Shown: piece after piece, positions 35,718 to 40,079 of the stretch
Layout of the letters: every line of letters starts with the position of its first letter
Position numbering within the stretch: position 1 is the first letter of the stretch
Source of the DNA: Methanococcoides seepicolus
Lineage (GTDB): Archaea; Halobacteriota; Methanosarcinia; Methanosarcinales; Methanosarcinaceae
Assembly (NCBI RefSeq): GCF_023684405.1
Contig: NZ_JAGSOI010000015.1
Location: 1 to 44,247, forward strand
DNA: 44,247 nt
Direction: 5' to 3'
Translations under genes and position numbers: made by a program
The notes under the pieces: model-generated
Seen by the model: only the letters and a program-made list of their open reading frames with translations
Told to the model about the DNA's origin: nothing
Database searches by the model: none

Positions 35718-36212
35718 ATGTCTGCTACAAATGGATCAACTTTTCTATCCAGGCTGGATAAAACGGGAACTGATATTCTCAAATGCATGCATTGTGGTGT
35801 TTGTACCGGCAGTTGTCCATCTGGAAGGCATACGAGCCTGAATGTAAGGAATTTGCTCAGGAAGGCTCGCAAAGGTGAATCTGTGCTTTCTGATGAGACC
35901 CTTTGGACGTGTACAACATGTTACAATTGTCAGGAACGTTGCCCGAGGGGAATTGATATTGTTGATGCTATTTTTGAGATACGTGCAATAGCAGTACAGG
36001 AAGGAATTATCCTTAAGGAACATCGCACCGTGGGTAAATTGCTGGTCGAACATGGACATGCAGTGCCCATAAATGCTGAGAACAAAGCAAAGAGAGAAGC
36101 ACTTGGGATGGATGCTTTGCCACCTACAGTACACAGTTTCCCGAATGCATTGAGTGAAGTTAAGAAGTTACTTGCCAACTGTAAATTCGATGAGTTGATG
36201 TCAAATGAGTGA
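35718..36212 (+). CDS. hdrC: Heterodisulfide reductase-type subunit C
   Basis: A 164-aa HdrC-like protein with two [4Fe-4S] motifs, CMHCGVCTGSCPSG (about residues 23-36) and CTTCYNCQERCPRG (about 66-79). HdrC passes electrons from HdrA to HdrB, which reduces CoM-S-S-CoB. The hdrB gene overlaps its end by 8 nt. No hdrA is adjacent, so HdrA, or another electron donor, is encoded elsewhere. Start: ATG with AAAGGA upstream. Soluble; no membrane helix, so not HdrE-linked. Confidence 0.88.
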   Translation: MSATNGSTFLSRLDKTGTDILKCMHCGVCTGSCPSGRHTSLNVRNLLRKARKGESVLSDETLWTCTTCYNCQERCPRGIDIVDAIFEIRAIAVQEGIILKEHRTVGKLLVEHGHAVPINAENKAKREALGMDALPPTVHSFPNALSEVKKLLANCKFDELMSNE

Positions 36213-37125
36213 ATCTGCAAGGAAGGAACACGAAATGAACAAATTGTCGCTGTTTCTCGGGTGTGTGATCCCTAATCGATACCCAGGTATTGAAAAAAGC
36301 ACAAAGCTATGCCTTGAGAAATTGGATATCGATTGTGTCGATCTTGAAGGGGCTTCATGTTGTCCGGCACCGGGAATTCTTCGGTCGTTCGATAAGACCA
36401 CATGGCTTGCCCTGTCCAGCAGGAATATTTCATTAACCGAAGATCTTGGACGTGACATGCTTACTATCTGTAATGGATGTTATGGGTCCCTTGCCGATGC
36501 AAATAATGAATTGAAAGCTGACGAGGACCTTAAGGAAAGTGTTAATTCCCACCTTGCAGCCGTAGACAGGGAATTTAAAGGTACACAGGATATTCGCCAT
36601 ATTACGGAGTTCTTGTATCAGGAAATAGAGCCCGAAAATATACGTGAGCTTGTCACAAACCCCCTGGAGATCAGGGTTGCTGTGCATTATGGCTGTCACC
36701 TGCTGAAACCTTCAAAGGGAAGGGTAGGCATGAGTGTGGAAAGGCCTTCTTTCTTTGATGAACTTGTTGAGGCCACAGGCGCAGTAAGTGTGGATTATCC
36801 TGATAAGATGGAATGTTGCGGTGCTGGCGGAGGGGTCAGGTCTGCTTTGAGTGATGAGGCCCTTGCCCTCACAGAGCATAAATTGTCAATGATAGAAGAA
36901 GCAGGGGTTGATTGTATTGTCAATGCATGCCCGTTCTGCCACATGCAACTTGATGTGGGACAAACTGACCTTAATGAAAGAGATGGCACAGAGCATTCAA
37001 TACCGGTGCTACATTACACACAATTATTGGGCCTTGCTTTTGGATATACCGTAGAGGAACTGGGCATTGACCTCAATTCTACATTGAACAAAGCTTTTTT
37101 TGAGATGATCGAGGATCGACCTTAA
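36205..37125 (+). CDS. hdrB: Heterodisulfide reductase-type subunit B
   Basis: A 306-aa HdrB with two complete CCG domains. The first has FLGCVIPNRYPG, GASCCPAPG and CNGCYG; the second has HYGCHLLKPS, ECCGAGGG and NACPFCHMQL. These cysteines bind the noncubane [4Fe-4S] clusters that cleave the CoM-S-S-CoB heterodisulfide. It ends with YTQLLGLAFGYTVEELGID, typical of HdrB. Coupled to hdrC by overlap. A weak hairpin CATGCT/AGCATG (37144-37167) follows and may terminate the transcript. Confidence 0.9.
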   Translation: MSESARKEHEMNKLSLFLGCVIPNRYPGIEKSTKLCLEKLDIDCVDLEGASCCPAPGILRSFDKTTWLALSSRNISLTEDLGRDMLTICNGCYGSLADANNELKADEDLKESVNSHLAAVDREFKGTQDIRHITEFLYQEIEPENIRELVTNPLEIRVAVHYGCHLLKPSKGRVGMSVERPSFFDELVEATGAVSVDYPDKMECCGAGGGVRSALSDEALALTEHKLSMIEEAGVDCIVNACPFCHMQLDVGQTDLNERDGTEHSIPVLHYTQLLGLAFGYTVEELGIDLNSTLNKAFFEMIEDRP

Positions 37126-37186
37126 TTCTCACTTTTTTACATGCATGCTGCTCTTGAACAAAGCATGTGGGGTTTTAAAAAATGAG

Positions 37187-37209
37187 AAGCTGGTTGTTTA
37201 AATCAGCTT
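37187..37209 (-). terminator. Terminator copy in the mtr remnant
   Basis: AAGCTG (37187-37192) and CAGCTT (37204-37209) form a 6-bp stem containing the remnant's stop codon, followed on the minus strand by TCTCATTTTTTAAAA. It parallels the genuine mtrH terminator at 37578-37600. Confidence 0.6.
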
Positions 37210-37308
37210 GTTGATTGAGTTGATCTCATCCATGATATCAAGACCGGGTGTCTGTAGGCTAATGAATATTGAGACTTCGTTCCGAATTTTATTTTTCTGC
37301 CATGTCAA

Positions 37309-37401
37309 TTATCTCCCGAATAACAATAGGCCAAGTAACAGTATAATTGCAAGACCTATCATGATGGCAAAAATGAGTGTAGGAAAATTTTTGTGATTCA
37401 T
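37309..37401 (-). CDS. Possible 30-aa membrane peptide derived from the MtrA anchor
   Basis: Starts MNHKNFPTLIFAIMIGLAII and ends [10 protein letters not shown]-stop, nearly the same as the C-terminal membrane anchor of MtrA ([20 protein letters not shown]). A TATA-like TATTTATA centred about 26 bp upstream puts the expected transcription start on the ATG, so it would be a leaderless mRNA. The soluble cobamide-binding domain is absent. Whether the peptide is made is not known; it may be a decayed fragment. Confidence 0.4.
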   Translation of the reverse strand: MNHKNFPTLIFAIMIGLAIILLLGLLLFGR

Positions 37402-37577
37402 AAGGCGTAATTTGAACCCACCGTATAAATAAAATGCCACTTCATTCACTATTTTTCTAAAGAAAATCATATGCAGGAATAATTACTTTTGGAGTTTTAC
37501 AACTCTTATGACCAGAAGAGGAAACCAAAATCAGATCAGGAAGTTAGAAATAAGTTAATGAAAAAAAAGAAAATGAA

Positions 37578-37600
37578 AAGCTGGTTGTTTAGACCAGCTT
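37578..37600 (-). terminator. mtr operon terminator
   Basis: AAGCTGG (37578-37584) and CCAGCTT (37594-37600) form a 7-bp stem with the mtrH stop codon in the loop. On the minus strand TTTCATTTTCTTTTTTTTTC follows. Confidence 0.75.
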
Positions 37601-38545
37601 GTTGATTGGGTGGTTCTCATCCATGATCTCAAGACCAAGCTCTTTTGCGGTCTCTGCAAGGATGATATCTACCATTGCGGTTGCAGGGTAGACTGTGTCA
37701 GTGTTCTCGATAGGACCGAACAGCTGGAAGTTAGAACCGAGTGTCTGTGGAACAAGGTTCGTTCCGATATCTGCTGGCATGTAAACTGCTTTACGCTGCT
37801 CTTTTGTTTCGAAGCCCTTCTTGTAATCCTTCATCCAGTCCCATGCAGAAGCAAGGTTGTGGTATCCGCCACCTACAGGGAGACCGAAGTGACCCTTTAC
37901 AGCGATTACTGCCCTCATGGATGCACCAGCGCCTGCTCCGAGTGGAGTTGCAGCTACATCAATGAGTGGTTTTGTGATGCCACAGTCCTTTGCGATGTCG
38001 AGCATACCCATGGTCTGACCTGGACCACCGGTCTCAAGAACCTCAAGTTTACCTTTTACGGTTGGGTCTGTTGCGTTGAACGCAAGGACGATAGAAGCAT
38101 TGATATCACTCTTTCTGATAGCTTCGATCTCATCGTCATGAATACTGCCGTTGATAGAGTTGTAGATAGCCCTGTCAGCTACACCGATCTCTGTAACGTA
38201 TTCTGCTGCTGCAGCACGTACTTCGCCTGCGGATGAGTCGATAAGGAAAGGTGTCTTGTCATCTTCTGCAACGAACCAATCGATGTATTTCTTGATAGCC
38301 TGTGGTGTTTCACCGACAATCTGGTTAACGCATGGATTACCTGTTACATCGGTCATCTCAAGCATGTGGTTCCAGAGATTGTCTGCTGCTTCCTTGTCGA
38401 AAACTCCCTCATCTTCATCGGTCACGATCTTGTGTCTGTTGTAGAACATTGAACCGATCAGAATTGTTGGGTACTGCCCGGGCTGACCGCCGAACTTGAC
38501 GCCGCCAACCTCGAATACTTCCTGTTTCTTGTCAAATTTAAACAT
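37589..38545 (-). CDS. mtrH: Tetrahydromethanopterin S-methyltransferase subunit H
   Basis: A 318-aa MtrH, the peripheral subunit that transfers the methyl group from methyl-tetrahydrosarcinapterin to the cobamide on MtrA. It has the family start MFKFDKKQEVFEVGGVKFGGQPGQYPTILIGSMFY, and PFLIDSSAGEVRAAAAEYV and NATDPTVKGKLEVLETGG of the TIM-barrel pterin-binding enzyme. No membrane segment. Last gene of mtrEDCBAFGH, 14 nt after mtrG, followed by a terminator hairpin overlapping the stop. Confidence 0.97.
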   Translation of the reverse strand: MFKFDKKQEVFEVGGVKFGGQPGQYPTILIGSMFYNRHKIVTDEDEGVFDKEAADNLWNHMLEMTDVTGNPCVNQIVGETPQAIKKYIDWFVAEDDKTPFLIDSSAGEVRAAAAEYVTEIGVADRAIYNSINGSIHDDEIEAIRKSDINASIVLAFNATDPTVKGKLEVLETGGPGQTMGMLDIAKDCGITKPLIDVAATPLGAGAGASMRAVIAVKGHFGLPVGGGYHNLASAWDWMKDYKKGFETKEQRKAVYMPADIGTNLVPQTLGSNFQLFGPIENTDTVYPATAMVDIILAETAKELGLEIMDENHPINKLV

Positions 38546-38787: not shown

Positions 38788-39023
38788 ATTACACCACCTA
38801 CCTGCCAGATGATCAATGGGAGTATCAGTACCATCAGAACTGCGAATCCAAAACCGACAATGAAGCCGGTTGCAGCTGTGGCATTAACTCCGGAGTCGAG
38901 CTTCTGGTTCCTTGCGATAAGCTGAGCCCTGTATCGAATTCTATCGACAACGTTTTCAATGGCACCCATCTGTGGGCTGATTACCATTGGGACTCCCTGT
39001 CCAGATTCTATTTCTTCTGCCAT
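38784..39023 (-). CDS. mtrF: Tetrahydromethanopterin S-methyltransferase subunit F
   Basis: A 79-aa Mtr[21 protein letters not shown], then a helical part and one C-terminal transmembrane helix ([21 protein letters not shown]). The region around [24 protein letters not shown] is shared with the N-terminus of MtrA-type subunits, as known for MtrF. The ATG has GGGAGGT upstream, overlapping the end of mtrA. A fragment of this start is duplicated at 37301. Confidence 0.95.
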
Positions 39024-39028
39024 GTCAA

Positions 39029-39754
39029 TTACCTCCCGAATAACAATAGGCCAAGTAGTGACAGCGTAATTGCAAGACCGATCATGATACCTTCGACCTT
39101 ACCTGCGTGTACGCCTGCGTGGTACTTGTTCCAGTTACCGGCAATGACCATTTCTCTGTCAATATCAAGGATCCTGTTCCTGATAGTTGCGATCTCAGCT
39201 GCCATTGGCTTAAGTCCGCCGGCCTCTTCCTCACCTTCGCCGCCAGCTTCGCCGACTTCGAGGACCATAGGATCAACATCAAGTGCTCCAAGGTCTTTTG
39301 CCACACATTCTTTGATCTTTGCAACGATCTGTCCCATATCTTCGGTACCGATCATGTCGATCATTTCAACCTGCTGCTGAAGTCTTTCGACCGCTTCATC
39401 AGTGAGGTTCTCAACATAAGGAATAGCACCTGTCGCGCCCACAATACGGTTATCACTTACACCGTTCTTGTGGACCATCATGAACGCTTCACCGGTAATG
39501 TGTCCTTTGACTTCGGAACCGGTAATGATCACGAATCTGATGTTAGGGTTTCCAATGATCTGTGCAACGACCTTCTCCAGACCAAGGTTCTCTGTTTTAC
39601 ATGGACCTGTAATTGCAGCTCCTGCTTCAAGTTGTGGGCCGCCAGGTATGTGTGATCCACAGGTGATAACAGCAACGCAGTTCTTTACGTCCCCTACCTC
39701 GTATTCACCTTTTAGGGTTGGCCAGTCTACTGCTGGTTCTCTTTTATCTACCAT
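39029..39754 (-). CDS. mtrA: Tetrahydromethanopterin S-methyltransferase subunit A (cobamide-binding)
   Basis: A 241-aa MtrA that carries the cobamide prosthetic group. The soluble domain has [33 protein letters not shown] and [13 protein letters not shown], with the His there the likely axial cobalt ligand. A C-terminal transmembrane anchor follows ([19 protein letters not shown]). The ATG at 39752-39754 is used: it has GGAGGT 8 nt upstream and starts [10 protein letters not shown]; a longer frame from a TTG overlaps mtrB. One nt separates the mtrB stop and this ATG. Confidence 0.96.
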
Positions 39755-39755
39755 A

Positions 39756-40079
39756 TTATAGACCTCCAATCAAACTGAGGATGTATAGTGTCAATGCTAC
39801 CATACCTGAGAAGATAAGACCGACTATAACACCATAGAAAGTGTTACCGTAGAAACCTGCTTTTAATGCTGTTTCTTCCCTTCCTGGGAAGGCGTTCAAA
39901 AGCTTCATGTCAGGTGAAAGTGAATTGACCAGATCATCAGCGATCTTATCAAGTTCATTTACCTGTTCCATGACAGGGTCCATTGAGTAACAGATGATGT
40001 CCTCACGTTCTGCTGCCAGAACTGATGTAAGTGGGTCCAATACAAGATGTGCTTCTGGTGCTACGTGTACCATGCTCAT
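39756..40079 (-). CDS. mtrB: Tetrahydromethanopterin S-methyltransferase subunit B
   Basis: A 107-aa MtrB with cytoplasmic helices ([48 protein letters not shown]) and one C-terminal transmembrane helix ([22 protein letters not shown]). The ATG overlaps the mtrC stop as ATGA. Part of the membrane complex. Confidence 0.95.

Follow-up and report, generated by a model that had tools for sequence, protein, structure and literature searches.

A chimeric small ORF with a captured promoter next to the mtr operon of Methanococcoides, predicted to encode an MtrA-anchor-like membrane peptide

Background

The N5-methyl-tetrahydromethanopterin:CoM methyltransferase (Mtr) is a central energy-conserving, sodium-pumping complex of methanogenesis. 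Reports from 2025-26 describe two small proteins that act on it, MtrI and MtrR. The structure from M. mazei shows the helices of MtrA as part of the stalk, together with MtrB, MtrF, and MtrG (PMC12774963). MtrI (M. mazei MM_2401) is a helical protein of 68 aa that lies on the cytosolic side, bridges MtrA and MtrCDE, and places Cys40 on the cobalt; its corrinoid binding involves Cys40 and contacts of Trp34 and Tyr44 (PMC12774963). MtrR (M. mazei sORF16) is a protein of 49 aa without a membrane domain that binds soluble MtrA (PMC13370731).

Here, we describe a small open reading frame (sORF) from a contig of Methanococcoides seepicolus, of which a stretch of 44,247 nucleotides (NZ_JAGSOI010000015.1, positions 1 to 44,247), referred to as the window, was analyzed. 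Like MtrI, its predicted product is a small protein whose gene is not one of the eight of the mtr operon, and both occur in the same archaeal order; action on Mtr has been shown for MtrI and is proposed for the peptide. The description of MtrI sets the two apart: the intact sORF copies (8 copies) encode peptides of 30-31 aa with one predicted membrane helix; Trp is absent from them, and neither Cys nor Tyr is conserved. The likeness to MtrR is that of a small, Mtr-directed protein, a property that is likewise shown for MtrR and proposed for the peptide; however, the peptide is a predicted hydrophobic membrane helix without a soluble domain and is therefore not MtrR. The peptide is also related to the membrane anchor of MtrA itself (PDB 9qtq, 8q3v), from which the last ~18 residues of the peptide are derived by DNA homology. 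Compared with MtrA, the peptide lacks both the corrinoid domain and the cytosolic linker, and has a new N-terminus and its own promoter, both from another gene.

Two further kinds of systems are similar in more general terms. Bacterial single-helix proteins of ~30-50 residues, such as those of the KdpF, AcrZ, and CydX types, reside beside large membrane complexes; the peptide is likened to them by description, and differs in that its helix derives from a subunit of the complex itself. Chimeric genes and MicroProteins formed at tandem-duplication junctions are also truncated, fused copies of complex subunits with new promoters. We know of no described archaeal case of a junction-born chimeric microprotein, and the origin of the present one was reconstructed with both parental genes still adjacent in sister species. 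Among open-licence papers, we found no report of this locus or of an mtr duplication in Methanococcoides.

Results and discussion

Organization of the unit and its distribution

A condensed, rearranged copy of mtr pieces (37179-37433, minus strand) is located between the end of mtrH and the convergent hdrCB genes. It was delineated by two direct repeats found within the window by BLASTN: (i) 37251-37365 (minus strand) matches the mtrA end and mtrF start at 38969-39088 (83%, E 4e-29), and (ii) 37179-37245 (minus strand) matches the mtrH end at 37570-37636 (90%, E 2e-20). The genuine operon, also on the minus strand, includes mtrA (39029-39769; assigned to the MtrA family by a PDB match, E 2e-101), whose 3' end at 39029-39088 is the donor sequence, and terminates with mtrH (37589-38545; TIGR01114, E 2.3e-149). 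The genes hdrC (35718-36212; TIGR03290) and hdrB (36205-37125; TIGR03288) on the plus strand converge with the mtr operon and bound the unit downstream.

All parts of the unit are on the minus strand. The 14-base TATA element TTTATTTATACGGT (37420-37433, with TTTATA at 37424-37429) precedes a chimeric sORF of 30 codons (37309-37401) that encodes a predicted single transmembrane helix. The promoter and the first ~12 codons form one segment (37366-37446), which is homologous to the corresponding part of another gene, hereafter geneX. The remaining part of the sORF (37309-37365) encodes the last ~18 residues of MtrA, the end of its membrane anchor; it belongs to the 83% BLASTN match, aligning to 39029-39088, and its profile matches MtrA C-termini. 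Further downstream are two decaying remnants: that of the mtrF start (37251-37308), which is recognized by BLASTN and has lost its reading frame, and that of the mtrH end (37179-37245) together with a copied hairpin (37187-37209).

In a DNA search of the 11 Methanococcoides genomes, 10 carried the unit immediately after mtrH; the exception is M. vulcani SLH 33 (G010), where it is absent. Since the unit occupies this position in so many genomes, its presence is not due to chance, and the shrunken copy of the mtrA end, mtrF start, and mtrH end described in an earlier note on this DNA is real on the grounds of both the direct repeats and this distribution. The ORF is intact in eight genomes: G000 (the window), G001 (M. 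alaskense), G002, G003, G004, G005, G008, and G009. It has been lost in three of the 11 species, via replacement of the ATG start codon by ATA in a metagenome-assembled genome (G007), via a 2-nt deletion in the 3' third of the ORF in G006, and via deletion of the whole unit in G010. These losses indicate that the gene is dispensable rather than essential.

In other genera of the family, the inspected loci contain no orthologue after mtrH. The ORF profile, searched against 112 genomes of the family, yielded full-length matches in Methanococcoides only; outside the genus it recovered MtrA tails and, in a few cases, weak hits attributed to chance; the LIFGR* tail in genome G107 belongs to a different gene. 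Thus, as far as searched, the sORF appears to be a Methanococcoides-specific gene.

Two other features related to mtr were observed. The last 27 nt of the genuine mtrA, within the 39029-39088 segment, are identical in nearly all Methanococcoides species, synonymous sites included, which is beyond protein constraint and perhaps reflects a signal in translation or at the RNA level where mtrA meets mtrF. Elsewhere in the window genome, an open frame of ~500 residues (G000:C127:5209-6138; L155 907-2481, minus strand) encodes an MtrA-like corrinoid domain fused to an MtrH-like domain, the latter being 48% identical to MtrH of the window; this protein presumably resembles the CmtA-type fused corrinoid/methyltransferase of Methanosarcina.

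Two parental genes and a tandem duplication

The second parent of the sORF, geneX, is the next gene downstream of the unit in G004 and G006. It encodes a secreted protein of 450+ residues with a DUF4139-like domain that scores just below the Pfam cut-off. In the region from -45 to +39 around the ATG, all ten copies of the sORF share 48-56 of 84 bases with geneX of G004. The same 84-position comparison with 862 other gene starts, taken from the sampled loci, gave a mean of 24 and a maximum of 40 shared bases. Therefore, the TATA box and the N-terminus are not derived from mtr. The proposal of the earlier note that the promoter comes from the tail of the mtr operon is thus replaced by an origin from the neighboring DUF4139-type gene. 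Its identification of the 30-codon ORF as a match to the MtrA anchor holds for the last ~18 codons; the first ~12 codons match the 5' end of geneX instead.

Relatives of geneX in other genera lack 5' similarity to the sORF and provide no extra signal; because of this, the direction from geneX to the sORF was inferred from synteny and gene structure. A geneX homologue is also located just beyond mtrH in three Methanohalophilus genomes. The geneX family (represented by L008 1970-3319 in G004) was observed in 51 of the 112 family genomes, often with two or three copies in Methanosarcina, and in only 2 of the 11 Methanococcoides genomes.

The gene orders in two clades complement each other. In G004, the order is mtrH, sORF, mtrF', geneX, and convergent hdrBC, where primes denote remnants, whereas in the window it is mtrH, sORF, mtrF', mtrH', and hdrBC; that is, geneX is gone and mtrH' remains in the window clade, with the opposite outcome in the G004 clade. 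Taken together, the two orders are what a single tandem duplication predicts. The duplication would have occurred in the Methanococcoides ancestor, when geneX was directly downstream of mtrH, with breakpoints in the membrane-anchor codons of mtrA and in the signal-peptide codons of geneX. The junction would have fused in frame the geneX promoter and first ~12 codons with the last ~18 codons of mtrA, giving the expected order mtrH - [P-geneX/geneX-start fused to mtrA-end] - mtrF' ... mtrH' - geneX - hdrBC. The other parts of the duplicated segment (mtrF', mtrG', mtrH', and the terminator) would then have undergone deletion and decay, the chimera being retained by purifying selection.

The observed unit has the composition of a junction chimera: the 5' part comes from the downstream parent, the 3' part comes from the upstream parent, and the remnants follow in the predicted order. 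G002 retains a longer stretch of the mtrH copy, and by eye the mtrF' and mtrH' remnants join there at a shared CCACAGA. We consider the origin of the sORF by junction fusion to be highly probable. Gene conversion with mtrA was rejected as an explanation for C-terminal conservation: the tail of the sORF resembles mtrA of its own genome no more than mtrA of other genomes and carries its own synonymous changes.

Conservation of the promoter

The TATA-like box noted earlier in front of the 30-codon ORF is real. The first base of TTTATA lies 28 nt before the A of the ATG, with the box centered at about -25.5, and both the TATA sequence and the TATA-ATG spacing are identical in all ten species that carry the unit. 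The 14-base element has a between-clade identity of 93%, the highest among 14-column windows of the region, compared with 43% for the leader between TATA and ATG, 56% for the upstream spacer, and 75% for the best other upstream window of 14 columns. The preservation of the promoter was previously proposed as a sign of selection, and this reading agrees with the retention of the box and its spacing amid diverged flanks. The spacing had been named beforehand as a feature whose drift would speak against the idea; it is kept, and at the level of sequence the idea survives.

In archaea, such a TATA-ATG distance goes with leaderless or very short-leader transcripts, and the position of the box fits this mode of transcription. 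A longer ORF of 53 codons starting at 37470 was rejected, as it crosses the TATA box and is broken in relatives. A sigma-70 promoter scan was set aside as not applicable to archaea.

The promoter is retained even in the two genomes with a damaged ORF, G007 and G006, as would be expected if its product were a small non-coding RNA pairing with the mtr mRNA. However, the transcript is predicted to run in the same direction as the mtr mRNA, and its mtr-like parts, being sense copies, are unable to pair with it; furthermore, the leader and the 3' part are not conserved, and the part that is conserved evolves like codons. The RNA pairing suggested by the earlier note thus fails on strand and sense, and we regard an RNA function of this kind as very improbable.

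Decay of the remnants and selection on the ORF

The sequences downstream of the sORF erode. The mtrF' remnant has a between-clade identity of 66% with 20% gaps, and the copied mtrH end with its hairpin is alignable in one clade only. The genuine mtrH hairpin with its T-run (37578-37600), a terminator-like site, has a folding energy of -10.4 kcal/mol versus -5.6, -5.6, -5.4, -4.1, and -2.1 kcal/mol for the copies in the five species that keep one (-5.6 in the window). Contrary to the initial description, the mtrH terminator is not preserved in the unit, because the copied hairpin is alignable in a single clade and is weakened there. The same degradation bears on the possibility that the unit is a transcription buffer, a spare promoter/terminator module insulating the convergent mtr and hdrBC operons. 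Its position between them would suit this role, but the hairpin is degraded in every species that has it, and a promoter aimed at hdrB would not insulate; we consider this the least probable of the readings.

The genuine hairpin has homologous sites in the 10 other Methanococcoides genomes, with the mtrH stop codon in the loop and a T-run after it. Its arms covary between the clades, from AAGCTGGT/ACCAGCTT to AACTGGTT/AACCAGTT, at an energy of about -10.4 kcal/mol; the covariation and the constant energy suggest that it is maintained as a terminator-like structure.

The sORF has a purifying codon pattern with conserved start and stop codons, apart from the three losses. Its omega, estimated on 30 codons and an mtr-based tree, is 0.43, with a log-likelihood ratio statistic of 10.2 against omega = 1; simulation of 100 data sets under omega = 1 never produced a value this high. 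In the C-terminal, MtrA-derived half, omega is 0.25. All eight intact copies keep the LG.LLFGR motif unchanged; the N-terminal half and the upper part of the helix diverge freely with hydrophobicity retained. Neutral evolution of the ORF was simulated on a tree whose scale came from flanking noncoding sequence, with indels not counted and an approximate, hand-written ancestor as the starting sequence; at least 8 of 10 ORFs remained intact in 0.045% of runs (P = 0.00045). The neutral drift of the ORF in relatives that the earlier note asked about was thus not seen, given the omega value and the eight intact copies among ten.

These data also allow us to weigh the possibility that the unit is decaying junk, a partial tandem duplication eroding neutrally, in which the ORF has survived by luck. 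The erosion of mtrF', mtrH', and the copied hairpin and the disruption or loss of the ORF in 3 of 11 species are what such decay would produce, but it does not account for a TATA box and spacing kept in 10 of 10 species, an omega significantly below 1, or a number of intact copies that is rarely attained under neutrality. We therefore consider neutral decay unlikely. Judged by these comparisons, the sORF is a real, conserved, genus-specific chimeric ORF with a captured promoter, and it probably encodes a functional peptide in at least some species.

Properties and proposed role of the peptide

Structure prediction gave a helix at residues 5-29 with a mean pLDDT of 88.9. The maximal 19-residue Kyte-Doolittle mean is 3.18 in the window peptide and 3.1-3.6 across the copies. 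The LGLLLFGR end of the MtrA membrane anchor is present in the peptide by both DNA and peptide matches. The LG.LLFGR end is common to MtrA tails of Methanosarcinaceae, and the sORF profile matches, weakly, residues 223-240 of M. mazei MtrA. With 30 codons, the ORF lacks the cytosolic corrinoid-binding domain and therefore does not encode an MtrA. Most likely, the predicted product is a single-pass membrane microprotein of ~30 residues that mimics the MtrA anchor. Its orientation would be N-in/C-out with LGLLLFGR outside, since MtrA has a cytosolic soluble domain and an external anchor C-terminus, and the geneX product begins with a signal peptide.

Tiny membrane proteins commonly have general membrane or envelope roles, and the peptide might be a short hydrophobic helix of this kind, functional and unrelated to Mtr. 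The freedom of its N-terminal half and upper helix to diverge while remaining hydrophobic would be compatible with such a role, as would a promoter that comes from an envelope-type gene and not from mtr; on the other hand, the strongest constraint falls on the MtrA-derived end shared with the MtrA tails of the family. We rate an Mtr-unrelated role as slightly less likely than neutral decay.

As the peptide carries the MtrA membrane anchor, modulation of Mtr by a membrane peptide, as suggested earlier, is a reasonable hypothesis, and Mtr is the leading candidate target of the predicted microprotein. Provided that the peptide is functional, we slightly favor an action on the Mtr complex. Under this proposal, the peptide would have a promoter of its own, separate from the mtr operon, would occupy or line the site of the MtrA anchor helix in the Mtr stalk or pack beside that helix, and would thus be an accessory or competing helix that tunes the assembly or activity of Mtr. 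For the explanation as a whole, a selected junction-born chimera whose product is a membrane microprotein acting at the Mtr stalk, we see about an even chance. A more specific version is offered tentatively: a recently born, genus-specific chimera of the MtrA anchor, placed in or beside the Mtr stalk and expressed from the promoter of an envelope gene, may be a natural competing helix that regulates the methyltransferase.

Implications

The locus provides an unusually readable case of gene birth, in which both parents and the intermediate debris survive in sister species. Duplication, in-frame fusion, promoter capture, decay of the remnants, selection on the ORF, and some losses can be traced within one genus. 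If the proposed role is true, the peptide would be the third small Mtr-acting protein and the first one that originates from one of the complex's own subunits.
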